A stretch of DNA of 64,000 bases from Synechococcus sp. PCC 7336. GTDB lineage: Bacteria; Cyanobacteriota; Cyanobacteriia; Thermostichales; PCC-7336. A program made the translations under genes and the position numbers. The notes under the pieces are model-generated. The model was not told the DNA's origin. It saw only the letters and a list, made by a program, of their open reading frames with translations, and did not search any database. Position 1 is the stretch's first letter, and the number at the start of each line of letters is the position of its first letter. Shown piece by piece: positions 966 to 61,891 of this stretch. Location of the stretch: contig NZ_CM001776.1 of NCBI RefSeq assembly GCF_000332275.1, forward strand, positions 434,001-498,000, written 5' to 3'.

Positions 966-3900
966 TCAGACAAAAGCCAAGTCAGTCAGCTCAAATCCAT
1001 TGCCCACAAAGGCAACGAGTTCGTCGCCCAGGAAGTCAAAGCTGCCGTTGCCATCATCGAGCGCAATAGCCGTGGCAGGACCGCTGCCCAAGCTAAAGAA
1101 AGCGTAATCGCCAAGACTGCCCGAGAGCTGAATGCGATCTTCACCCGTCGCAAAATCTGTCAGTTCGGCCACGTCAGCCGTACCCGCCTCAGCGTAGAAC
1201 GCCCCTGACTCGTCGCCTAAGACAAAGGTATCTCCACCAGCACCGCCCGTTAAGGCATCGGCCCCGCCAACTCCGTTGAGGATATTGGCACGAGCATCGC
1301 CCGCGAGATTGTCATTGAAGACAGTGCCCGTGAGATTTTCAATACTTCTCAAAGTATCCGTAATCAGTACATCGGGTGCAGGCTCGTAAAAGGCAGTGCC
1401 AGCAGCCAGATCTGCCGTGACTCCAACGGGAATGTCGCTGAAATCAGCCGTATCGTTGCCGCCGCCGCCATTCAGGCGATCGGAGCCACCGCCCCCCATG
1501 AGGGTGTCAGCACCGCCGTTACCGAAGAGATCGTCGCTACCGCTGCCCCCAGCAATGAAGTCGGCACCGCCGCCACCGAAGAGGTCGTCGTTGCCACTGC
1601 CCCCCATGAGGGTGTCGGCACCGCCGCCGCCGATGAGATCGTCATCCCCTTCGCCCCCATACAGAGTGTCGGCACCGCCACCTGCTCTGAGGTCGTCGTT
1701 GCCGCCACCCCCTTCGAGGGTATCGGCACCGCCGCCACCGAAGAGGTCATCATCTCCCTCACCGCCAACCAAGGTGTCATCGCCAGCGCGACCGAAGAGG
1801 TCGTCATTGCCACCTCCCCCTTGGAGGTCGTCATCGCCTTGGCCAGCTTTGAGATCGTCATCGCCAGCGCCGCCGAGGAGAGTATCGTTGCCCGAGTCAC
1901 CTTTGAGGAAGTCGTCGCCGTCAGCTCCAAAGAGCTCGTCATCACCAGCGCGACCCTTAATAATGTCGTCGCCAGCTAAGCCGAAAATTGAATCGCCATC
2001 GGCAGTCCCTTGCAAGATGTCATCGCCATCTGTGCCGATTAGAACGGCCAGAGATGGCAACACAGTATCTTCCCGGAAACTCAGGTTTTGGACGCGCTCG
2101 TCCTCTGACACCGAAGTATCCTCCACACCAAACGCAGAGCCGCCCAGATCTTCGTTGAACTCCGCAAAGAAGAGCTCCGCGAGGGCATCCTGCTCGGAGC
2201 CAGCATCGGCAAAGTCCGCCAAGTCTTGGAAGCTGCCACTCGCCAGCGCCGCAAACTCTGCTTCCAAATTGACTTCGTTGTAGAAATCGGGGTCCAATGC
2301 CTCGAAGACGGGGAACGGATAGCTATCGCCGCCATTTTCCAGGAAGTCGAGGGTGACCACCCGAATGGCAGCGGGAGCATTCGGTAACACTTCTCCATCG
2401 ACTACCACCGGCACAAATTCGCCCGTGGCTTCGTCAAACACCGTCACATTGAGGATGCGATCGCCTGCTGTAATCTGTTCGAGGGTATTGGGATCGAAGC
2501 TGCGAGCCGCTTGGGTGGGGTCGAAGCTGAAGCGGATGTTGCCCACCTGGCCGAACTGTCCGGGCTCGTTGAACATATCCGGCTGAGACTCAGCCACCGC
2601 ATGTTCGAGCACTTCGAGCAACTGCTCGGAGGTCAGGGTGACTAATTCCAGACCGTTGTTGAAGCGCAGGGTATTGGCAATATCCAGTTGAGACACATCG
2701 CCTGCTTCTTTGCCAGCAGCAGGGTTGGCCTGGGTGGTGGTTTGCACCACAGTGCCGTCGTCGAGCTGGCCCACAAAGCCGATGATGTCGCGGATGCCGC
2801 CGCCATTCTTGATGGAAACCAAGATAGGGGAAGTATCGATATCCTCAATTTCGCGGGCGACGAAGATGTTGGCATCGGCGGTGAGGTTGCCGAAGTTGGT
2901 TTCTTCGTTGCGGACGGAGGAGCGGGCACCATTGAGGAAGACATCTGACTGACCGACAATATTGCCATCCTGCAAATTGACAACGTTTGTGACGTTATTG
3001 ACCAGATCCTGCACCACTTGCTGAGAAGTGCCATCGGCGAAGGCTGCCTCCAGCGCTTCTGCGTCAGTCAGCGCTCCAGCTTGATTGAACTGGGCGATAA
3101 CCCCAGCATCGGTTGTGGCAAAAGCACCGCTAACGGTTTCGTCAACGCTCTCGGGAATGATGTTGCCATTGCTGTCAAACTCGATCGCCAAACGGCCCAC
3201 GTAGCTGTACTCGCCATCGGTGGACACCACGGCAACGGGGTTGCCGTCGGCATCGGAGGTGACGAAGGGATAGCCCGGTTGAACGCTAGGGGTGTCGGGG
3301 TCGATATCGAACACGTTGTCGATGGTGTCGCCCGGTTGCAAGCCGCGATCGATATCCTCCTGGTCTGCCACAATCTGGTCGGAACCGCCCGCCACGATGA
3401 TGTCCACGCCAGACAGGAGAGGAGCCAGTTGCTCGGCTTCGATCGCAAACTGTTGCAGGTGAGAGACCAAAATCACCTTATCGAGACTGCGTCCCGAGCC
3501 GTCGTCAAAGGCCAATAGCTCGTCTATCTCTGTCTGAATGATGGTGGCTAGTTCGGCGATCGCGTCGGAGCTAGGCAATACCTCGACTAAGCCGGGGGAG
3601 GAGATGCTCTCCAGCAGCGGCGTGGTGGCACCGACAACACCAATCAGCTCTCCGCCTACTTCAATCACCGTCGAAGGCGCGATCCTGTCATCGTTGCTAT
3701 CGGCAGCCGTTTCGAATGGATCGGCTGGATTGGCCCGCGCCGACAGCAGGTCGCTGGCGAATTCGGTGCTGAGTAGAATCTCGTCAGTGAACAGATTGCC
3801 AATTTCGGGGTCGGCAGAGAAGTCGAGGTTGGAGGAGAGATAGGGGAACTGAATGCCCGGGAAGTCAACTTCTTGCAGAAAGTTTACGAGATCGGGGAAG

Positions 3901-16918: not shown

Positions 16919-17087
16919 GGCTTTGTTCTACAACTGTTCGTCACTGCGATCGCCTTCCCAGCCTCCCAACTCCAACGAGCACTGTACTCAAGTCCCCCAG
17001 AATGGGGGATTTAGCGGGCGAATGCAGCGATTGACCGCATTCGTGGGAGGAACTCAAAACTACGGGTTTCAAGCTAGATTCGGTTTA
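16919..17087 (+). repeat. Dispersed noncoding repeat, copy 1
   Basis: Shares the order GGCTT-GTTCTACAACT ... AAGTCCCCCAGAATGGGGGA ... AAAACTACGGGTTTCA ... CGGTTTA with 37350-37543, with small indels. The core CCCCCAGAATGGGGG is palindromic. It is noncoding in both places, which suggests a MITE-like or structured repeat family. Confidence 0.7.
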
Positions 17088-32352: not shown

Positions 32353-32784
32353 ATGTTTGCTAATCCTGATGATGAAACGCTTCGTCAATTACTTGAGGAG
32401 GCCCAGACGATTGCTGTGGTGGGCCATTCCAATAAGCCCCATCGGGATAGCTATCGGGTGGCGCAGTATTTGCGATCGGCTGGATACATCGTTTATCCAG
32501 TCAATCCGGCGGTGGATGAAATTGACGGACAGCGGTGTTATCGAACGCTGGCGGAGGTGCCGGAGGCGGTGGATATTGTGAATGTGTTTCGGCGGTCTGA
32601 GTTTTTGGCTGAGATTGTGAGAGAGGCGATCGCGATTCAGGCTAAGGGGATTTGGGCGCAGTTGGGGGTTGTGGATGAAGGGGCGGCTCGGGTGGCGGTG
32701 GCGGGAGGGGCGATCGTGGTGATGGATGCTTGCATCAAAGTTGAGCACCATCGCTTGGGGATTGCTGTTAAGCGGAGATTTTGA
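32353..32784 (+). CDS. CoA-binding protein (YccU family)
   Basis: 143 residues from the ATG at 32353 (MFANPDDETLRQLL). A Rossmann-like CoA-binding domain: TIAVVGHSNKPHRDSYRVA, then YLRSAGYIVYPVNP, VDIVNVFRRSEFL and IWAQLGVVDEGA, as in YccU and the succinyl-CoA synthetase alpha N-terminal domain. Function unknown in vivo. A second, 3'-truncated copy of its early part occurs at 36250-36416. Confidence 0.88.
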   Translation: MFANPDDETLRQLLEEAQTIAVVGHSNKPHRDSYRVAQYLRSAGYIVYPVNPAVDEIDGQRCYRTLAEVPEAVDIVNVFRRSEFLAEIVREAIAIQAKGIWAQLGVVDEGAARVAVAGGAIVVMDACIKVEHHRLGIAVKRRF

Positions 32785-32966
32785 ATTCGAGGTTTAAGGG
32801 CGATGGAACTGGAGAGAGGTGGCGATCGCTTTCCTCCACTCCCCTGGCTCTCAGTCAGATTGAGTTTAGAATAGTGAGTTGACACCCATTCAGCCAAATT
32901 ACCTGTTCTGGTATATTGGGCCGACCAAAGGCACATCAAACTCAATCGATTACTGCGAGAATTGGG

Positions 32967-33089
32967 CTAAATACCCCGATGGGGGGTATATGCGGAAAAC
33001 CGGTCGGACTAAACACCCAGATCGGGGAGTTATACGGAAAGTTTCTGTCTAATAGCCCCGTAGAGGTGTGTTAGGCAGAATGAGTCAGT
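32967..33089. repeat. Degenerate 40-42-bp tandem repeat with palindromic cores
   Basis: Three units, starting CTAAATACC, CTAAACACC and CTAATAGCC, each have a small hairpin core (for example ACCCCGATGGGGGGT) and a GCGGAAA- or ACGGAAA-type join. They lie directly before the restriction-modification genes. The third unit contains a GTTAGGC heptamer. Confidence 0.6.
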
Positions 33090-33102
33090 CTAATAAATAA
33101 TA

Positions 33103-33109
33103 GTTATGC
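33103..33109 (+). other. Integron-type core site GTTATGC (cassette left boundary candidate)
   Basis: The same heptamer ends the attC-like site at 35266-35272. Insertion of a cassette by an integron integrase leaves such a direct repeat of the core at both ends, with cleavage between G and TT. It lies 35 bp before the restriction endonuclease start. Confidence 0.5.
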
Positions 33110-33143
33110 AGCAAGTGTATCTAATCAAATTAAGATATCGAGT

Positions 33144-33932
33144 ATGACGGACGCGAATGATGACATGGACGCGCTCTCACACTCCGTTTGCTCGTTATTC
33201 GGCGCAGCATCAACCGCAATTTCAGACGGCGTCCTGATTCAACGAGCGAACCGACAGGACAAGGAATTCCACTTCCAAAACTGGTTCAAGCTCCTGTTGG
33301 AGTCGCAATCCTTGGACTTCGACGAGCCGGGTCGGAATACCTACCCGGATTTTCGGCTTGTACACAATCCCGTCGGTTACGAAATCAAAGGACTTGGCTT
33401 CCCCGGTCGCGTGGCCGACTATGACTGCAACAGTCAGATTCCACACGGTGTTTATCGTGGTCGTCACATTATGTATGTTTTCGGTCGATATCCCGCTAAA
33501 CCGGACACAAACGAGTACTCCGTTTTCGACCTCGTATTGTGCCACGGTTCGTTTCTAAATGCTGACGATGAATACGTTCACAAGAACAAAAGCATTCGAG
33601 GAATGGGCAGCTACGGGGACATTCTTCTCCGAGACAGAAAGATGTATGTAGCTCCAACGCCATACGGTCTACTCGACGGCGTCGAGCGACAGGTAACGCT
33701 GGTTCTCCCCGATTCTTGGTCACCCAGTGACGATGTGGTAAAAAAGGGGGAGATCGTCAGGCTCGAAGCAGAACGTGTGATGTGTGGTTATCAGTTCGAC
33801 CTGACGACGAACGAATTGCAAGCAACTTGGCGGGACAATCCCCACGCCGGGCGGCAGCACAAGTTCGTGGCGTATCGGTCAACTTCTTCGCCGGGGCCAG
33901 ACGTACAACTCAAGCAGGATGTACAAACTTGA
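33144..33932 (+). CDS. Type II restriction endonuclease, PD-(D/E)XK fold
   Basis: 262 residues. The catalytic motif appears as TYPDFRLV followed by GYEIKGL (Asp ... Glu-x-Lys, about residues 73-90), the PD-(D/E)XK arrangement. No other domain was found. The stop codon overlaps the TTG start of the C5-methyltransferase gene, so the two are translationally coupled, as in many type II systems. The recognition sequence cannot be read from the protein. Base usage differs from the HIP1-rich flanks, and the gene lies between two GTTATGC core sites, consistent with horizontal transfer. Confidence 0.8.
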   Translation: MTDANDDMDALSHSVCSLFGAASTAISDGVLIQRANRQDKEFHFQNWFKLLLESQSLDFDEPGRNTYPDFRLVHNPVGYEIKGLGFPGRVADYDCNSQIPHGVYRGRHIMYVFGRYPAKPDTNEYSVFDLVLCHGSFLNADDEYVHKNKSIRGMGSYGDILLRDRKMYVAPTPYGLLDGVERQVTLVLPDSWSPSDDVVKKGEIVRLEAERVMCGYQFDLTTNELQATWRDNPHAGRQHKFVAYRSTSSPGPDVQLKQDVQT

Positions 33933-35056
33933 CAACAGCGTTCACTATTCATGGCCTTTGCGCAGGCGCCGGTGGACTCGATCTTGGATTTGAACTTGCA
34001 GGCTTTCAGCACCAACACTCGATGGATTTAGAGCCGTTTGCGGTTCAAACCTTGAAGGCCAATCGACCCGAATGGGACGTCTCACAAGCAGACCTAAGCG
34101 ACTATTCGCTTTCTACGACGAATGCTCCTGATGTGCTGTTGGCTGGCGTACCTTGTCAGGGATTCTCACTCGGCGGGAATCGTCAAGATACAGACCCGCG
34201 CAATCATCTTTACAAATACGTTGTTCGGCTGGCGGCGAACAACCAACCTCGCGTCATTGTTATCGAGAACGTTCTGAATCTGCGAACCATGAAATGTCCA
34301 GAAACGGGCATTCCATTCGCTCAGCGAATCACACGGGAACTAGAGGACGCCGGGTACGTTGTCTTCCACAACATATTCAAAATGTGTTTTCATGGCGTTC
34401 CCCAGACACGCCGACGATTTGTCTTTGTCGCGTTCTTAGGTGAAGCTCCTCGCGGTTATCATCTTCCCGTTCCTGATGCAACATTAACAGCGATTCGCAA
34501 TCACCTATTCGATCTGGCGAACGACAACGATCGGCCGCCTCGGTTACCAAACCACGATCCTGAATGGGGATTTCGCAGCGCTGTCCACAAAGAAACAGGA
34601 AAAAGATTCTCCTTCACTGAAGAAGTCGTTCCTGTTCGATTTTCTCGCACTGCGTCAGATGGCAACCCAATCCGTTCTTTCGATGACCCTTTTCCCGCTG
34701 TGGACACCGCAACTGTATGGGGTTGGGCACAAGGTAATGTCGTTGCTCGACGTGAAAATAAAGACCGAGAGAACGGTAAACACATCAGGAATCCGAATGC
34801 TGATGTAACCTTATGGCGAATTCATGCTTCTCGTCTGCGCTCATTTACCCACCGCGAATACGCACGTCTCCAAACATTTCCCGATGACTGGGAGTTCCTT
34901 GGTCACAATAAACGTGACATTCACAAGCAAATCGGCAATGCTGTGCCCGTTGAGTTCGCGCGTAGACTAGGAGAGAACATTCGTGAAGCATTGGCCTGTT
35001 TGGACAACGGGGTCGCTTTCTCAACTCAACCCGCACAATTAAGCCTGTTTCAGTAA
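33929..35056 (+). CDS. DNA (cytosine-5-)-methyltransferase, type II
   Basis: 375 residues. The TTG start shares TTGA with the endonuclease stop; the open frame further upstream is the endonuclease in another frame. C5-methyltransferase motifs in order: I GLCAGAGGLDLGFELAG, IV GVPCQGFSLGG with the catalytic Cys, VI VIENV, VIII QTRRRFVFVA, a target-recognition region (about 190-300), and IX-X with REYARLQTFP and IGNAVPVEFA. It protects host DNA from the partner nuclease. Its last 478 bp are duplicated downstream. Confidence 0.93.
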   Translation: MTTAFTIHGLCAGAGGLDLGFELAGFQHQHSMDLEPFAVQTLKANRPEWDVSQADLSDYSLSTTNAPDVLLAGVPCQGFSLGGNRQDTDPRNHLYKYVVRLAANNQPRVIVIENVLNLRTMKCPETGIPFAQRITRELEDAGYVVFHNIFKMCFHGVPQTRRRFVFVAFLGEAPRGYHLPVPDATLTAIRNHLFDLANDNDRPPRLPNHDPEWGFRSAVHKETGKRFSFTEEVVPVRFSRTASDGNPIRSFDDPFPAVDTATVWGWAQGNVVARRENKDRENGKHIRNPNADVTLWRIHASRLRSFTHREYARLQTFPDDWEFLGHNKRDIHKQIGNAVPVEFARRLGENIREALACLDNGVAFSTQPAQLSLFQ

Positions 35057-35212
35057 AAGCTGTATAACAATGCAATGCACCGGAGCGGGCGCAACCTATG
35101 ACGAGGTATTAGAAGCTGTCGAAGTCGGTATAGAAATGGGGGGTGGTCCCGCTACGGTATCAGCGCGTTTTGCGCTGCAGGTTATGCAGGTCGTCTTCGC
35201 ACAATAAGCCTT

Positions 35213-35272
35213 GCCCAACAAGGCGCTCAACTCGGATGCTTCCCTACGTGCCGGTTAGCGTTAGCGTTATGC
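35213..35272 (+). other. Integron attC-like recombination site
   Basis: 60 bp with the attC architecture. R'' is GCCCAAC and R' is GTTATGC. L'' (CGCT-C-AAC-T-CGG, 35224-35235) pairs with L' (CCGGTTAGCG, 35251-35260) as 10 bp with two single-base bulges; the first bulge (C on top, G on bottom) sits in the same TCAA context as the extrahelical G of known attC sites. The loop is 15 nt. R''/R' pair at 5 of 7 positions. It follows the methyltransferase gene as an attC follows its cassette gene. Confidence 0.7.
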
Positions 35273-35327
35273 TATCGAAATTTACGGCTTGTAAATGTCT
35301 TTTGAGTGATGTGAGGCTTTAGGGAGA

Positions 35328-35392
35328 TGCGATCGCCATTTCGAGGCTGAAGCGCGATCGTAAAGTAGTTCTTGAGAGAAAGGCGATCGCCT
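35328..35392 (+). repeat. HIP1-flanked short repeat, copy 1
   Basis: GCGATCGCCATTTCGAGGCT, then GAAGCGCGATCGTA, ending AGGCGATCGCC. Copies occur at 37161-37227 and 38219-38284, with a shorter one at 36179-36210. The copies bracket both toxin-antitoxin modules. A second, less conserved block (about 35406-35475, recurring at about 37553-37625) follows. Confidence 0.8.
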
Positions 35393-35583
35393 GAATACAA
35401 GGTGCTGCAGATGCTCGCGATCGCCTGTTAGTTTTCCTCCCCAGATCGATAGACATGTCTGCTCGCGATCGCCCATCTTATCGGTTGGGCTTCTTCGTAT
35501 CCCAACATTTCCCACTGGCAATGGTCAGCTCTCGCATTCAAGCCATAATTAGGGTATCTCTAACCTATATCGCTTAAATCGCC

Positions 35584-35802
35584 ATGACAGAACTCCTCGA
35601 AAGAGCAATTGAGCAATTGAAGACCCTTCCTGATGACAAACAGGATGCGATCGCCCTTCTAATCATGGAGGAACTAGAAGAAGAGCTCCAGTGGGATACT
35701 GCGTTTGCCAACTCTCAAGGGATTTTGGCCGATCTGGCTGCTGAAGCGATGACCGAGCATCGTGCTGGTCAGACTCAAGAGCTGAATCCAGAAACACTGT
35801 GA
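35584..35802 (+). CDS. Antitoxin of RelE/ParE-type module
   Basis: 72 residues, acidic and helical (LLERAIEQLKTLPDDKQDAI, IMEELEEELQWD), typical of short antitoxins paired with RelE/ParE toxins in cyanobacteria. Its stop overlaps the toxin start (GTGA), and the order antitoxin-toxin is the usual one. It should neutralise the toxin by direct binding and may autoregulate the operon; no DNA-binding motif is obvious. Confidence 0.8.
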   Translation: MTELLERAIEQLKTLPDDKQDAIALLIMEELEEELQWDTAFANSQGILADLAAEAMTEHRAGQTQELNPETL

Positions 35803-36068
35803 AATCCAGAACTACAGCTAAATTCCGTCAGGCGTTTGCTAAGTTACCCAATCAAGCTCAAGAGCGGGCTCGCAAAGCTTATCGCCAGTTTCAACAAGAT
35901 CCGGGGCATCCCAGTCTACGCTTTAAGCAAGTTCATGCAAAAATGCCCATCTATTCAGCTCGAATTAGCAAAAACTATCGAGTAGTTGGTCGGCAAGATG
36001 GAGATACTATGATTTGGTTCTGGATTGGCTCCCATGCAGAATATGACAAGTTGCTATCCCGAATATAA
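35799..36068 (+). CDS. RelE/ParE-family toxin
   Basis: 89 residues with a GTG start overlapping the antitoxin stop by four bases. The RelE fold is recognisable: KFRQAFAKLPNQAQERARKA, LRFKQVHAKMPIYSARI, NYRVVGRQDGDTMIWFWIGSHAEYDKLL. The C-terminal Trp-Ile-Gly-x-His-x-x-Tyr strand is characteristic of cyanobacterial RelE-like mRNA interferases. Likely a ribosome-associated mRNA nuclease. Confidence 0.85.
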   Translation: MKSRTTAKFRQAFAKLPNQAQERARKAYRQFQQDPGHPSLRFKQVHAKMPIYSARISKNYRVVGRQDGDTMIWFWIGSHAEYDKLLSRI

Positions 36069-36224: not shown

Positions 36225-36416
36225 TTGCAAGATAACCAATGCGTAACGAGTCAACTATTGGAGGAGGCCCAGACTATTGCTGTGGTGGGACATTCCAATA
36301 AACCCCATCGGGATAGCTATCGGGTGGCGCAGTATTTGCGATCGGCTGGATACATCGTTCATCCAGTCAATCCGGCGGTGGATGAAATTGACGGACAGCG
36401 GTGTTATCGAGCGCTG
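36225..36416 (+). pseudogene. 5' fragment of a CoA-binding protein gene (duplicate)
   Basis: From about 36250 it repeats 32384-32550 with roughly seven substitutions, covering TIAVVGHSNKPHRDSYRVA to GQRCYRAL. It then jumps, at the shared pentamer CGCTG, into the methyltransferase 3' sequence. The resulting 138-codon chimeric frame (to 36641) continues out of frame with the methyltransferase and is presumably nonfunctional. Confidence 0.88.
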
Positions 36417-36889
36417 TCCACAAAGAAACAGGAAAAAGATTCTCCTCCACTGAAGAAGTCGTTCCTGTTCGATTTTCTCGCACTGCGTCAGATGGCAACC
36501 CAATCCGTTCTTTCGATGACCCTTTTCCCGCTGTGGACACCGCAACTGTATGGGGTTGGGCACAAGGTAATGTCGTTGCTCGACGTGAAAATAAAGACCG
36601 AGAGAACGGTAAACACATCAGGAATCCGAATGCTGATGTAACCTTATGGCGAATTCATGCTTCTCGTCTGCGCTCATTTACCCACCGCGAATACGCACGT
36701 CTCCAAACATTTCCCGATGACTGGGAGTTCCTTGGTCACAATAAACGTGACATTCACAAGCAAATCGGCAATGCTGTGCCCGTTGAGTCCGCGCGTAGAC
36801 TAGGAGAGAACATTCGTGAAGCATTGGCCTGTTTGGACAACGGGGTCGCTTTCTCAACTCAACCCGCACAATTAAGCCTGTTTCAGTAA
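36412..36889 (+). pseudogene. Duplicated 3' part of the C5-methyltransferase gene
   Basis: Encodes the last about 158 residues, from AVHKETGKRFS to the natural end QPAQLSLFQ, with the target-recognition part and motifs IX-X, but lacks the cofactor and catalytic motifs I-VIII. It cannot methylate alone. One change replaces VEFARR with VESARR after motif X. Confidence 0.9.
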
Positions 36890-37045
36890 AAGCTGTATAA
36901 CAATGCAATGCACCGGAGCGGGCGCAACCTATGACGAGGTATTAGAAGCTGTCGAAGTCGGTATAGAAATGGGGGGTGGTCCCGCTACGGTATCAGCGCG
37001 TTTTGCGCTGCAGGTTATGCAGGTCGTCTTCGCACAATAAGCCTT

Positions 37046-37105
37046 GCCCAACAAGGCGCTCAACTCGGATGCTTCCCTACGTGCCGGTTAGCGTTAGCGT
37101 TATGC
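37046..37105 (+). other. Integron attC-like site, duplicated copy
   Basis: Identical to the site after the methyltransferase gene, carried along by the direct duplication. Confidence 0.65.
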
Positions 37106-37160
37106 TATCGAAATTTACGGCTTGTAAATGTCTTTTGAGTGATGTGAGGCTTTAGGGAGA

Positions 37161-37227
37161 TGCGATCGCCATTTCGAGGCTGAAGCGCGATCGTAAAGTA
37201 GTTCTTGAGAGAGAGAGGCGATCGCCT
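37161..37227 (+). repeat. HIP1-flanked short repeat, copy 2
   Basis: Same element as 35328-35392, with a 2-bp insertion in the GAGAGA run. Confidence 0.8.
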
Positions 37228-37305
37228 CAATAAAAGATGTTGGAGTTATGAGTCGATATAAACCGCATCTATGTTGAGACCTGGAGTTTTTAGGCGTTGC
37301 ACTCG

Positions 37306-37543
37306 GCCCCCTAAATCCCCCACCAGTGGGGGACTTGTGAGAGGCTATTGGCTTCGTTCTACAACTTTAATGACCGGCTGATTCGCCGGTTCTTCTTCCC
37401 CGTCTCCAAACCCCAGCTAGCACTGTCGCCAAGTCCCCCAGAATGGGGGATTTAGGGGGCGAATGCAGCGATCGACAGCGCTCGTGAGAGGGACTAATAG
37501 ATGTCTTATCAAAACTACGGGTTTCAGACTAGACTCGGTTTAG
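37306..37543 (+). repeat. Dispersed noncoding repeat, copy 2, with 31-bp inverted arms
   Basis: The arms GCCCCCTAAATCCCCC...GGGGGACTTG (37306-37337) and CAAGTCCCCC...GGGGGATTTAGGGGGC (37430-37460) are inverted copies of each other, and each is itself palindromic. The part from 37350 on matches 16919-17087. No coding potential. It interrupts the homology that follows the methyltransferase duplication. Confidence 0.75.
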
Positions 37544-37706: not shown

Positions 37707-37994
37707 ATGATTGAGTTTGAATGGGACTCTCAAAAAAGTCAATTAAACCAGGAGAAGCATGGAGTTTCTTTTGACGAGGCTCGCTCAGTATTCTTTGATG
37801 AAAACGCGATTCAATTTTTTGACGATGAGTATTCAGAGGAAGAAGATCGATTTATATTGCTCGGAATGAGTATTAGATTGAGAGTACTGGTAGTGTGCCA
37901 TTGCGAAAGGGAAAGAGGGAATGCAATCCGAATAATCTCAGCAAGGAAGGCGACAAGATCCGAACGTAAATACTATTCTGGAGAGAAGCAATGA
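37707..37994 (+). CDS. brnT: BrnT-family toxin
   Basis: 95 residues. Typical BrnT motifs: FEWDSQKSQLNQEKHGVSF at the N-terminus, the EARSVFFD helix and RIISARKATRSERKYY at the end. BrnT is a RelE-fold ribonuclease. The toxin gene precedes the antitoxin gene, as usual for brnTA, and overlaps it (ATGA). Confidence 0.93.
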   Translation: MIEFEWDSQKSQLNQEKHGVSFDEARSVFFDENAIQFFDDEYSEEEDRFILLGMSIRLRVLVVCHCERERGNAIRIISARKATRSERKYYSGEKQ

Positions 37995-38215
37995 AAGATG
38001 AATACGATTTCTCTAAAATGAGGAGCCGCAAAAATCCGTATGCCTCTAAACTGAAAAAACAGGTAACGATTCGGATGAGTGAAGATGTAATTGAATATTT
38101 TAAAGACATGGCAGAGGAATCTGGAATTCCCTATCAAAGCCTAATCAATCTTTATCTGCGCGATTGTGTCTCTAGTCATAGAAAAATAGATGTCAAGTGG
38201 GCAAGGCAGGCATAG
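37991..38215 (+). CDS. brnA: BrnA-family antitoxin
   Basis: 74 residues: a toxin-wrapping N-terminus (DYDFSKMRSRKNPYA type) and a ribbon-helix-helix DNA-binding part (QVTIRMSEDVIEYFKDMAEE ... IPYQSLINLYL). It should neutralise BrnT and repress its own promoter. It overlaps the brnT stop by four bases. Confidence 0.9.
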   Translation: MKDEYDFSKMRSRKNPYASKLKKQVTIRMSEDVIEYFKDMAEESGIPYQSLINLYLRDCVSSHRKIDVKWARQA

Positions 38216-39914: not shown

Positions 39915-40033
39915 CCCCCTACTTGCTCGCTCGTATTTCGATCCGGCGGACTGGATCGACCCCTATCGTATGGGAACGAGTTAGCGACAATCAGGAAGAC
40001 TGCGAAAGATGGAAATCTTTTACAGACTCGACT

Positions 40034-56900: not shown

Positions 56901-57764
56901 GACGGCAATGGCAACCGCACGAATGCGGGCTATGTCACTCAGGAGCGCAATCAACTAGTTGAGGATGAGAGCTATGCCTACACCTATGACGGTGAGGGGA
57001 ATCGAGTTACTCGGCTGGATAAGGCAACTAGGGAGTTAGAGACGTTTGAGTGGGACCATCGCAATCGACTGCAGGGGGTGGTCACAACTGATATCAACGG
57101 CAATATCATCGAGACGGTTGATTACGAGTACGACATCTTCGATCGGCGGATCGAGAAGACAGTTGACCCGGATGGCGGTGGGGTTTTAGCAACGCAAACA
57201 GAGCGGTATGTGTATGATGGCGAGCATATTGCGCTGGTGTTTGATGGGCAGGGGAATCTCACCTATCGATATTTGCATGGACCGGCGATCGACCAAGTGT
57301 TGGCGCAAGAAGATGCCGGTGGCGAGGTGCTGTGGGCACTGACAGACCATCAGGGCACTGTAAAAGACCTGCTCGATGCTAATGGCAATCTGGTCAACCA
57401 CATTAGCTATGGTAGTTTTGGCAACATCACGGGCGAGACGAATTCTGATATTGAGTTTCGCTTTGGTTATACGGGTAGGGAGTTTGATAGAGAGACGAAG
57501 CTCAATTATTATCGAGCTCGGTATTACGATGGTAAAGTTGGAAAATTCATTAATGAAGATCCTCTTAGCTTCTTGGCTGAAGATGCAAATTTATATAGAT
57601 ATGTATTTAATTCTCCAGTAAATTTAATCGATCCTTTGGGCCTGGATGGAGGGACTGTTATTAGTCAAACAAGGCAGATAGCGCTTTCTGATGGAACGAC
57701 GATTTTCGATACGCTCAATAATAGCCAGGTCAAATTCTCTACCTCGCCAGAAAGTAGTTGGTAA
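50946..57764 (+). CDS. Rhs/YD-repeat polymorphic-toxin core protein
   Basis: 2,272 residues. N-terminal beta domains (a carboxypeptidase-regulatory-like part near 38-110), an opening block SVQLFTGALIETHDLASYQS (about 310), YD repeats (about 540-760), an inserted LamG/concanavalin-type domain (about 767-960, LSFDGVDDYVQL), a second beta-sandwich (about 998-1160), then dense YD repeats (about 1175-2165; motifs like RYEYDALNRL) and the Rhs end GYTGREFDRETKLNYYRARY with DPLGL. YD repeats form a shell that encloses a C-terminal toxin. There is no signal peptide, and the start looks 5'-truncated. A TAA ends it just past DPLGL, separating it from the nuclease tip in the same frame. Confidence 0.88.
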   Translation: MGRSPSVDGTATVEQAVTLEVVADPIATTRVSGVIASTLLDPATGEQQVLEGVRITLGEAETFTAADGSFTLELLNGFPDINALKIHGDSIAGAYPFIAERLPLVLGQEAIVGVNNVITRPIYLPPIDVDSGSVIPAGQDVTVTTDKIPGAAVFVAADSLLDPQGNPFGGVLSITEVSAELTPAAFPDTLSPDLVVTIQPGEMVFAQAAPLSLPNLAGYAAGFELDLYSINPATGDFEVVGRGRVSADGTVVETVEGGIRNSSWHFFAPTPQAPGLNQLHPECNTCPADTNNLELGESNNPDGSNFNSSVQLFTGALIETHDLASYQSQGVNRGLQLTYDSQRANPNHLVSFGYDNVDPTALAPNFEERLRLMAQLTVHADGFDLEAAGFEGGQYGLQGGENFWSLPAESGPVNASLQVDLSSVKSGKYDYSLESGIRLFVRNQLVGSSNTTQGELLHVNSVDSVFGSGWGLAGLQEIVENADGSLLLIDGDGSELLFDAPSLAGEPYQSPLGDFSELVKLPDGTFRRTLTDQTVYEFNERNQLVEMRDRNGNSNRYEYDLQGRFVKRVDPVGLETRFEYTGDRITSIVDPAGRVTRLEHDEFGNLARIVDPDESARTWGYDSRHLLTTEITKRGFVEETFYDEAGRASRAERPDGSAVQVAGFESQGFVRGDLTRDVTAAPLAAGGSELQATYADANGNVRAAQLDLAGQFVNASDGVGAGGIVRRNADNLVEQTTDARGFLTNYTYDERGNVTSISDTVSLSTGATLPQASLSFDGVDDYVQLSSSPIVAGLPNSTIETWVNFNSVTSEVGETIYSEDNSGGTIHRLYRNDNTIGFAIWRSDRSGQWRYVNATVDIVAGEWLHIAGVLDAEGGMILYVNGEEVAFNNSNLPTNTNVVSTQLGRHINNGGGGYFNGKVDEIRAWGVARSQAEIQRHLDYQLAGNEVGLLGYWRLDAGDGTNIDNTAVSSNDELTGDLTNGVQWSEDTAPLNNQFLLEELAYDEDFEGDIISSSLDEWTNSNTDNSHPNTFSTFLGRFSNSETTLNLSTTAGETYNITFDLYAIDSWDENSAISGPDIVRVEADNTILFREALGLTNEPTFRPPDESGYFGFSSQYQDAIYRDISLTFTAQDGLTSLRFADEGLQGLFDESWGIDNVRVVKLTAVDAAEGSSQRFSYDPAFNQLASYTDELGRQTFFEIDPTNGNTTEIRQVIGQDDRTSVETDDLLTLFTYTTQGLVDTITDPLGRITDNDYDVLGRLESTTVAVGTADQAQVRFEYDLAGNLATFIDENGNRTSYEYDALNRLERIIEADPDGVGPLLSPVTLFDYDAYGNLIETIDANGNLTRYEYEERDRLSKIINANNDESTFEYDGQGNLIAETDFRGNATTHFYDSRNRRIASLDPEGGIARFAYDLDNNLIRVVDPRGNATRYGYDARDRLVSTTDAEGNVSRYEFDAVNNLIATVDRNQNRTEFAYDDINRLVQQIDPYSNSYLRSYDKASNLTSATDERGHTTQFEYDARYRLTKTIDAKLGATEFRYDAVGNLLSVEDELDRLTQFEYDALNRQISVIDPLLQTTRYRYDAIGNLKGIDGELNRTASYDYDKLNRVETVTNAHNDTITYRYDANSNLLSVSDELNRTTRFTYDKRNWQTSVTDPLIHTSTTAYDANGNVLSVTDPLGNTTRYAYDTLNRQIGITDANNDTTTLGYDAVGNLTSVLDPELNLTEYVYDKLHRVEEESSHGDVRTFAYDATSNLTSMVNANGFETTYSYDELNRRISELGYNELGELLNNYFYEFDAADQLRAVGDNFHRYGYTYDLAGRLTSVSNAGSTGGVPQVDFAYGYDAANNRTSVTDTIAGVETGLETFEFDLLNRVTRLTQSGANVAEKSVTFGYDAASQMTSVGRFSDLAETQSVATSIYQYDLAGRLEQLTHANSSSTVADYGFTYDAASRITQLTSPDGESVYSYDQRNQLTGAEYDYQGNEDYTYDGNGNRTNAGYVTQERNQLVEDESYAYTYDGEGNRVTRLDKATRELETFEWDHRNRLQGVVTTDINGNIIETVDYEYDIFDRRIEKTVDPDGGGVLATQTERYVYDGEHIALVFDGQGNLTYRYLHGPAIDQVLAQEDAGGEVLWALTDHQGTVKDLLDANGNLVNHISYGSFGNITGETNSDIEFRFGYTGREFDRETKLNYYRARYYDGKVGKFINEDPLSFLAEDANLYRYVFNSPVNLIDPLGLDGGTVISQTRQIALSDGTTIFDTLNNSQVKFSTSPESSW

Positions 57765-59743: not shown

Positions 59744-61891
59744 ACCCGCTACGCCTACGACACGCTCAATCGCCAGATTAGTATTACGGATGCCAATAAC
59801 GACACCACCACATTTGGTCACGATGCCGCTGGCAATCTTATCTCCCTACTCGACCCCGAACTGAACCGAACCGAATACGTTTACGACAAGCTCCATCGCG
59901 TGGAGGCAGAATCCAGCCACGGAGATGTGCGTACCTTTAGCTACGATGCCACCAGTAATCGGATCTCGATGGTTAATGGTAATGGATTCGAGACCCTCTA
60001 TAGCTATGACGAACTCAATCGCCGTATCGGCGAGCAGGGATATAACGAGCTGGGCGAGCTGCTGCAAGATTACGTCTACGAGTTTGATGCTGCCGACCAA
60101 CTGAAAGCAGCAGGGGATGCTTTCCATCGCTACAGTTACAGCTACGATCTAGCCGGTCGTGCCACCTCAGTCTCGAATGCAGGCAGCACGGGTGTTCCTC
60201 AGGTGGACCTTGCCTACGGCTACGATGCTGCCAACAACCGCACCTCTGTAACTGACACCATCGCCGGAGTTGAGACTGGACTGGAAACCTTTGAGTTTGA
60301 CCTGCTCAATCGGGTGACTCGCCTTACTCAGTCGGGGGCGAATGTGGCCGAGAAGTCTGTCACTTTCGGCTACGACGCTGCCAGTCAAATGACGAGTGTG
60401 GGCCGGTTTAGCGATTTGGCTGAGACTCAGTCTGTGGCCACCAGTATCTACCAATACGATCTGGCCGGACGGCTGGAGCAATTGACCCATGCGAATAGCA
60501 GCTCTACGGTGGCTGATTATGGATTTACTTACGATGCGGCCAGTCGGATTACCCAGCTGACTTCTCCAGATGGGGAATCGGTGTATAGCTACGACCAACG
60601 GAATCAGTTGACAGGGGCTGAGTATGACTATCAGGGGAATGAAGACTATACCTATGACGGCAATGGCAACCGCACGAATGCGGGCTATGTCACTCAGGAG
60701 CGCAATCAACTAGTTGAGGATGAGAGCTATGCCTACACCTATGACGGTGAGGGGAATCGAGTTACTCGGCTGGATAAGGCAACTAGGGAGTTAGAGACGT
60801 TTGAGTGGGACCATCGCAATCGACTGCAGGGGGTGGTCACAACTGATATCAACGGCAATATCATCGAGACGGTTGATTACGAGTACGACATCTTCGATCG
60901 GCGGATCGAGAAGACAGTTGACCCGGATGGCGGTGGGGTTTTAGCAACGCAAACAGAGCGGTATGTGTATGATGGCGAGCATATTGCGCTGGTGTTTGAT
61001 GGGCAGGGGAATCTCACCTATCGATATTTGCATGGACCGGCGATCGACCAGGTGTTGGCACAAGAAGATGCCGGTGGCGAGGTGCTGTGGGCACTGACAG
61101 ACCATCAGGGCACTGTAAAAGACCTGCTCGATTCCGATGGCACTCTCGTCAATCACATCAGCTACGACAGTTTTGGCAACATTACGGGTGAAAGCAATCC
61201 TGATGTAGAGTTTCGCTTCGGGTATACAGGGCGGGAGTTTGATGAGGAGACAGGAAACTACTACTACCGGGCTCGATACTATGACCCTTCTATCGGTCAG
61301 TTCATCAGTCAAGATCCATTAAGTTTCGGTGCTAGTGATGCCAATCTTTATCGCTATGTTGGAAATTCTGTTGTCAATCTGACCGATCCTTCTGGGTTAT
61401 TTGCTTTGCCTCTCGCCATACCACTAGTACCAGTTATTGTTATTGCTGGTTTAGTTGTAGTGGGTGTAATAATTCTTTCACAGACAGAGGTACCACCTTT
61501 AGTCTGGCCCTTAAAAGGTGATCCTTCCCCCCTACCTCGTGCCCTTCCTGAAACTGATACAAGCACTGATATTACTCCTCGTGTTGAGCCAACACCATCG
61601 CCATCGCCATCGCCCGTTCCAGTTCCTTGGCTTGAGCATGACACTCAGCCCGATCCTCTCCCAGACCCATTACCACCGACTACTTGTTCTGAAGATAATA
61701 ATGAGAGAGAATTTAGATGTGAATTAGTACGTCAATCCCCAATGCCTGCATTGGGCAGAGAATTATGTCAATATCATTGTCAAGGAGATCCACGTAGTTG
61801 GTTGGTTCATGGTTTTGTGCCATTAGGAGAAAAATGTCCTGAAGGAGTAGATTGGCTCCCACCAGATCGAAACCTAGAGCCGGCTGGTTGA
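59744..61891 (+). pseudogene. Orphan Rhs 3' cassette with alternative C-terminal tip
   Basis: YD-repeat coding starts abruptly, without a start codon or N-terminus, and matches the first Rhs gene from about 55985. 60218-61131 is almost identical to 56463-57376. After the conserved DPSGL boundary the tip differs: a membrane helix (PLAIPLVPVIVIAGLVVVGV), a Pro-rich linker with SPSPSPVPVP, and a Cys-containing end (LCQYHCQGDP). A GTG at 59900 would give 663 residues. This is the build of displaced Rhs tips that can recombine onto the full-length gene. Confidence 0.82.

Follow-up and report, generated by a model that had tools for sequence, protein, structure and literature searches.

Published descriptions of integrons place a single attI next to intI. 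In the available portions of PMC8946536 and PMC4792948, attI1 of class 1 integrons is a site of about 65 bp with L and R boxes and two direct repeats, DR1 and DR2, and the V. cholerae attIA is without such direct repeats; knowledge of how attI is recognized is described as lacking in PMC4792948. Restriction-modification (R-M) genes in integron cassettes are reported from Xanthomonas arrays, and attC clusters without an integrase are termed CALIN, in the portions of PMC12444791 open to us; section 2.4.4 of PMC8876359 describes cassette fusion with loss of the upstream attC. As far as the accessible text of PMC2426708 and PMC8352920 goes, Cyanobacteria are among the taxa with intI or attC.

The locus described here is, very probably, a fused R-M gene cassette inserted by an integron integrase at a dyad-type attI, on a platform that now lacks intI. 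It lies in a window of 64,000 nucleotides (the whole stretch of DNA analysed, G000:C1:434001-498000) of a 5.07-Mb single-contig genome with PsaA/PsaB of photosystem I (two matches) and many GCGATCGC repeats, which we take to be HIP1, a cyanobacterial marker; the genome is therefore that of a cyanobacterium. Like the Xanthomonas R-M cassettes in the text seen of PMC12444791, it has its defence genes right after the recombination core and then an attC; unlike them, it holds a two-gene operon, is fused and cyanobacterial, and sits on a platform without intI. As in the fused cassettes of PMC8876359 (section consulted), the upstream attC is partly lost and a second attC bounds the pair, but here the second gene is truncated too, with only its tail and attC left. 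It resembles CALIN, as outlined in PMC12444791, in that its attC is far from intI, whereas it keeps a recognizable attI. Moreover, while a CALIN needs at least two attC without intI, the two complete attC copies in the window are one attC and its segmental duplicate (37046-37105). The attI itself is like attI1 in having accessory repeats upstream of the crossover; in contrast to the two direct repeats over about 65 bp there, dyad attI has up to six ~35-bp dyads over roughly 100-250 bp. R-M cassettes and fused cassettes are thus already known, and the surprising part is the platform, often found apart from any integrase.

Two covariance models, trained with the window excluded, were used to annotate the locus: R1, from 23 attC sites of integrase-linked arrays in this and other cyanobacteria, and R2, from 23 attI units of seven genomes, picked by eye. 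The features are as follows.

32890..32924, + strand: attI dyad unit 1 (R2 17.6 bits, E 0.12), the weakest, in register with unit 1 of the 4583-kb copy
32962..32996, + strand: attI dyad unit 2 (R2 20.3 bits, E 0.024)
33004..33038, + strand: attI dyad unit 3 (R2 28.1 bits, E 2.2e-4)
33044..33079, + strand: attI dyad unit 4 (R2 33.9 bits, E 6.6e-6)
33089..33112, + strand: attI crossover TCTAATAAATAATA-GTTATGCAGC, 9 nt after the last unit
33104..35266, + strand: probable whole gene cassette, fused type, 2163 bp, with the attI crossover at one end and the attC R' at the other
33144..33932, + strand: putative restriction endonuclease, 262 aa, with PD...EIK
33929..35056, + strand: C5-cytosine DNA methyltransferase, 375 aa from TTG (PF00145, E 2.4e-57; TIGR00675)
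35062..35085, + strand: what remains of the attC belonging to the R-M cassette, a left half with R'' and L'' (left-half matrix 26.4); the right half is missing
35088..35207, + strand: C-terminal tail of a carboxymuconolactone-decarboxylase-like (CMD) gene of the second cassette (Pfam CMD, E 0.003, profile positions 46-82 of 84, below cut-off)
35213..35272, + strand: complete attC of the second cassette (R1 20.6 bits, E 0.018, searching both strands of 22 sources, 316 kb)
36250..36416, + strand: copy (95%) of part of a CoA-binding gene (32384-32550), start of the deleted duplicate
36410..37245, + strand: copy (98.8%) of 34577-35410, taking in the end of the methyltransferase gene, the half attC, the CMD tail, the attC at 37046-37105 and the right flank

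The cassette can be read from its downstream end. The R1 match to the complete attC spans all 48 model positions, and by eye its 60 nt resolve into R'' GCCCAAC, L'' CGCT(C)AAC(T)CGG, L' CCGGTTAGCG and R' GTTATGC. Its duplicate equals it in R1 score, and the next R1 match in the window has E 3.9. The site scores under most of those in integrase-linked arrays (27-53 bits), pairs R'' with R' at just 5/7 positions, has a bulged C in place of the usual G, and is not among the matches listed for the whole genome, where 150 of 1301 candidates were scored. This score with its imperfect R box, and the CMD tail below the Pfam cut-off, are among the points against our best explanation. A search of Rfam gave nothing relevant. 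A cruder hand-made attC scan placed the site (13.8) and its duplicate as the top + strand matches in the window, but the site fell short of the cut-off of 14, a level that 27 matches reached in shuffled sequence (10 x 64 kb, both strands); the scan was set aside as too noisy to arbitrate.

Directly after the methyltransferase stop, GTATAACAATGCAATGCACCGGAG forms a regular attC left half. With a matrix made from 23 attC left halves, its score lies within the training range of 17.0-29.6, against 15.2 for the next best site in the window (its own copy apart) and 10.8-21.0 for the best sites of 20 shuffled windows. The reading frame that follows encodes GATYDEVLEAVEVGIEMGGGPATVSARFALQVMQVVFAQ and a stop, a C-terminal piece resembling CMD, after which comes the complete attC; a search for plasmid matches to this tail peptide gave none. 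The simplest reading of half attC, CMD tail and complete attC is that two neighbouring cassettes were joined by deletion, which would have put the CMD-like gene tail behind the left half of the attC of the R-M cassette and left one complete attC. GTTATGC occurs at 33103-33109 and again at 35266-35272, so that both boundaries agree with G|TTRRRY; its T at the second R departs from GTTRRRY, as also happens in several sites of integrase-linked arrays.

An earlier note on this DNA had described the 60-bp element as an attC with R''/R' ends, L''/L' pairing and a bulged C, and had suggested a covariance model as a check; our own model, trained without the window, matches the element, if with 20.6 bits and 5/7 R pairs. 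The integron cassette which that note drew from 33104 to 35266 keeps these boundaries, now an attI crossover on one side and an attC R' on the other, but what was taken for one cassette appears to be a fusion of two, the second truncated. That note makes no mention of the array of attI units upstream, of the half attC at 35062, or of the partial copy at 36250-37245.

This last stretch looks like a partial second copy, from a duplication with internal deletion. Between the two segment copies, at 35584-36068, lies a small gene pair with a ParE-like toxin (PF24732). Elsewhere in the window, we noted by eye a BrnT/BrnA-like pair at 37707-38215 and, at 56949-57123 and 60704-60878, identical 175-nt stretches that resemble parts of YD-repeat (Rhs-type) genes. 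The 30 genomes searched as relatives, which included no same-genus or same-family genome, gave no relative with an empty site, and right-flank paralogues searched for one proved to be local repeats only.

The restriction-modification operon proposed for this locus is borne out by the 262-aa ORF at 33144-33932 (+), its first gene, and the PF00145 methyltransferase that follows. The two genes overlap by four bases, at the endonuclease stop, if the methyltransferase starts, as comparison with relatives indicates it probably does, at TTG 33929. Its PCQ, ENV, QTRRR and GNAV, read by eye, are presumably the catalytic motifs of C5-cytosine methyltransferases. The 262-aa protein has no family match in Pfam, NCBIfam or PADLOC, and its predicted structure (pLDDT 49.5) is too poor for a fold search. 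P68, D69, E80 and K82 are invariant in 4/4 aligned sequences; we take PD at 68-69 and ExK at 80-82 to be the PD-(D/E)XK nuclease motif, and the protein fits such a nuclease. In three cyanobacterial MAGs, its 67-68% identical relative is the neighbour of a methyltransferase of the same kind. Since a PF00145 methyltransferase has a PD/ExK-conserved protein kept beside it in relatives, the pair looks like a type II R-M system. At E 1e-20, two of the 339 genomes sampled across the phylum have the endonuclease: that of the window and a second one, where identity is 55%; a scan of viral contigs found no relatives of it. Plasmids of two Alphaproteobacteria and a Rhodococcus (L191, L192, L193) carry the same endonuclease family at 50-56% identity, followed by a ~700-aa N6/N4-type methyltransferase where the cyanobacteria have the C5 enzyme, a partner swap.

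Upstream of the operon, the four dyad units lead into the crossover, where we expect cleavage between G33103 and T33104. The flank at 32885-33108 is 67-68% identical to C1:4583312-4583534 and can be aligned with four other attI copies of the same genome; the 4583-kb copy is in turn 89-92% identical, over parts, to the DNA immediately upstream of a truncated intI at 4251 kb. The best match of the flank, to the 4583-kb copy, stops at window position 33108, within the GTTATGC core, and the mutual homology of the genome's attI copies stops in the GTTRRRY core or a few bases past it, which is what insertion of a different cassette at each copy would produce. Because of the array upstream, the 5' core at 33103 has independent support. 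A GTTATGC core 35 bp before the endonuclease had been pointed out earlier; the core is indeed there, at 33103-33109, as part of an attI crossover rather than as a bare core. No promoter above chance was found in the region (2 sites against 2.4 expected by shuffling), one promoter-like site falling at 33072-33101.

The same design occurs upstream of several other cyanobacterial intI genes: ~35-bp dyads TCTGnCTAATnnCCC...GGGGTGTTATGCGGA, the last half dyad running into TCTAATnAATA-GTTRnnC. Each dyad is a pair of inverted GTTRRRC-like boxes, and up to six follow one another at ~41-bp spacing, over roughly 100-250 bp. Among 16 integrase loci that had supplied no training units, R2 matched six at E <=0.05 and two more less well (0.063 and 0.35), the first seven of these on the array side of intI; the remaining eight had no R2 match among the matches listed. 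The units pair at 83.7% of cells, compared with 33.6-49.0% when the partner is slid, and show 20 double changes, where shuffling gives 10.3 on average and reaches that count in 2/500 cases. Judged by this pairing, they are true dyads. Adjacent unit centres lie less than 60 bp apart in 58/69 cases, 50 of them at 40-43 bp and eight at 35-36.5 bp, a spacing that would amount to about four helical turns. An accepted crossover was present in 25/41 unit clusters, 22 times at 9 nt after the last unit (the window's among them) and three times at 19 nt; tried at 40,000 random positions of the same loci, the crossover regex began at the 9-nt offset 40 times. In this tally, L139 (offset 9, wrong strand) and L185 (offset 4) were judged spurious, and 14 clusters had no regex match; in three of these (L186, L059, L044) a crossover can be made out by eye. 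The tally did not extend to the intI loci L045, L047, L058 and L043, nor to L181, a solitary palindrome that has no crossover. A free palindrome scan of attI regions was swamped by chance dyads, and R2 was used in its place.

The window gave no IntI match, in keeping with the earlier statement that it holds no integrase gene, and the intI that stands beside attI in a complete integron was not found. The wider genome, where a search for IntI and further attC had been advised, has three intI, all broken, the nearest ~460 kb from the locus.

C1:927338-928277: broken intI, split over two frames
C1:2574022-2575093: broken intI, in three pieces
C1:4251138-4251437: broken intI, model positions 1-99 only

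It also has at least 25 attC in 11 clusters by R1 (150 of 1301 candidates scored). A dyad array immediately precedes the truncated intI at 4251 kb. Four more places, at 2227, 3073, 3155 and 4583 kb, have an attI array or a single unit with a crossover; R1 places attC (two) downstream at 3155 kb only, and at 4583 kb we read an interrupted attC by eye. The copies at 3155 and 3073 kb retain, by eye, short 5' remnants of intI; the window has none. Beside the other two intI (L009, L010), R2 found no match, so the attI type is not universal and not every attI of this genome is of the dyad type. Two attC elsewhere drew attention: at L091 2285-2650, the halves are apparently parted, by eye, by a dispersed C-rich repeat resembling window 37295-37542 and 16954-17087, and at L143 5258-5317 lies a 60-nt attC of 43.4 bits, short as the window's, in a genome where most are 84-90 nt, and perhaps imported.

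R2 was then applied to the 339 genomes sampled from the phylum, 161 of which have PsaA/PsaB; the other 178 are presumably non-photosynthetic members. At E 1e-3, arrays were found in 21 genomes, all among the 161 (0 of the 178). An intI was detected, at E 1e-50, in 21/339, and both features in nine, an overlap partly due to the seven of these nine that gave R2 training units; the held-out overlaps are only G213 and G235. We took 20 loci whose arrays are distant from a detected intI or in genomes without one, none of which had contributed to R1. Counting attC at E <=0.005, a same-strand attC lies downstream in 11 of their 16 arrays with an accepted crossover, and no opposite-strand attC was seen there except those of a neighbouring array. 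The 16 are exclusive of L176, L181, L183, L186, L188, L190 and extra single units in L172 and L185; L183 and L190, thus left out, do have attC, and L179 is without room downstream. By tblastn, seven IntI proteins matched seven of 27 loci (L011, L182, L183, L184, L185, L186, L190), mostly as N-terminal fragments, and had no match in the other 20; 8/11 arrays with attC therefore lack an IntI match in the fetched flanks. In the literature searched, by title and opening abstract, no paper described the dyad attI architecture or its intI-less copies.

One possible account of arrays that stand apart from an integrase, which we entertain tentatively, is a distributed integron, in which attI arrays would be copied as discrete modules and one integrase would serve several of them in trans, the window being one such module. 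On G205 contig 33, three ~93%-identical attI copies of ~230 bp, two direct and one inverted, lie within 5.7 kb (L175 3633-3864, 5811-6043, 9097-9317). They have the same left end, no IntI match lies near them, and two of them are followed by a gene and an attC. Moreover, G039 and G205 have intI frames without a stop and extra arrays elsewhere, some with attC downstream. Against this stand the copies of the window's genome at 4251 kb and, by eye, at 3155 and 3073 kb: since they keep intI 5' remnants, whole platforms that lost their intI are explanation enough in that genome, and we favour relics of whole integrons minus intI over self-multiplying attI modules for the orphan arrays of this genome. 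The broader proposal is that cyanobacteria have an attI architecture of their own, in which inverted pairs of IntI boxes are arrayed in phase with the helix and can multiply without intI, with several docking sites served in trans by one integrase and the window as an R-M-carrying one; it is a conjecture that we rather doubt.

Two further accounts dispense with an attI. In one, an integrase would have put the cassette into a GTT that happened to lie outside any integron (attG-type insertion). Such insertion is known according to the available text of PMC12444791 and would suit a locus ~460 kb from the nearest intI; it is disfavoured, and in our judgment improbable, because the left flank is an attI-type array with the crossover in register. 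That there is no integron feature here, the R-M operon having moved otherwise beside attC-like and core-like sequences that arose by chance, is very improbable indeed: operon relatives in the three cyanobacterial MAGs are without a flanking attC at E 2 or better, and plasmid relatives adjoin mobilisation or unrelated genes, but the attC, half attC and attI units of the window were matched independently, in correct order and strand.

On the preferred reading, of a fused cassette at a dyad-type attI, an integron integrase would have inserted the cassette, with its type II-like R-M operon, at G33103|T33104. The docking platform would be an attI of cyanobacterial type, with tandem ~41-bp dyads ending 9 nt before the crossover, from which intI has gone. 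The dyads would bind IntI, and the R-M pair would restrict incoming DNA, read from upstream or from within attI. The cassette may have moved as long as an intact IntI existed; with all three intI of the genome broken, it has probably become immobile.

The fused cassette suggests how a two-gene defence operon can turn into a single cassette. A recognizable attI type shows which genes sit first at platforms and lets guidance of IntI by accessory dyads be tested; as it can be aligned, it also offers a way to find integron platforms whose integrase has been lost or was never there.
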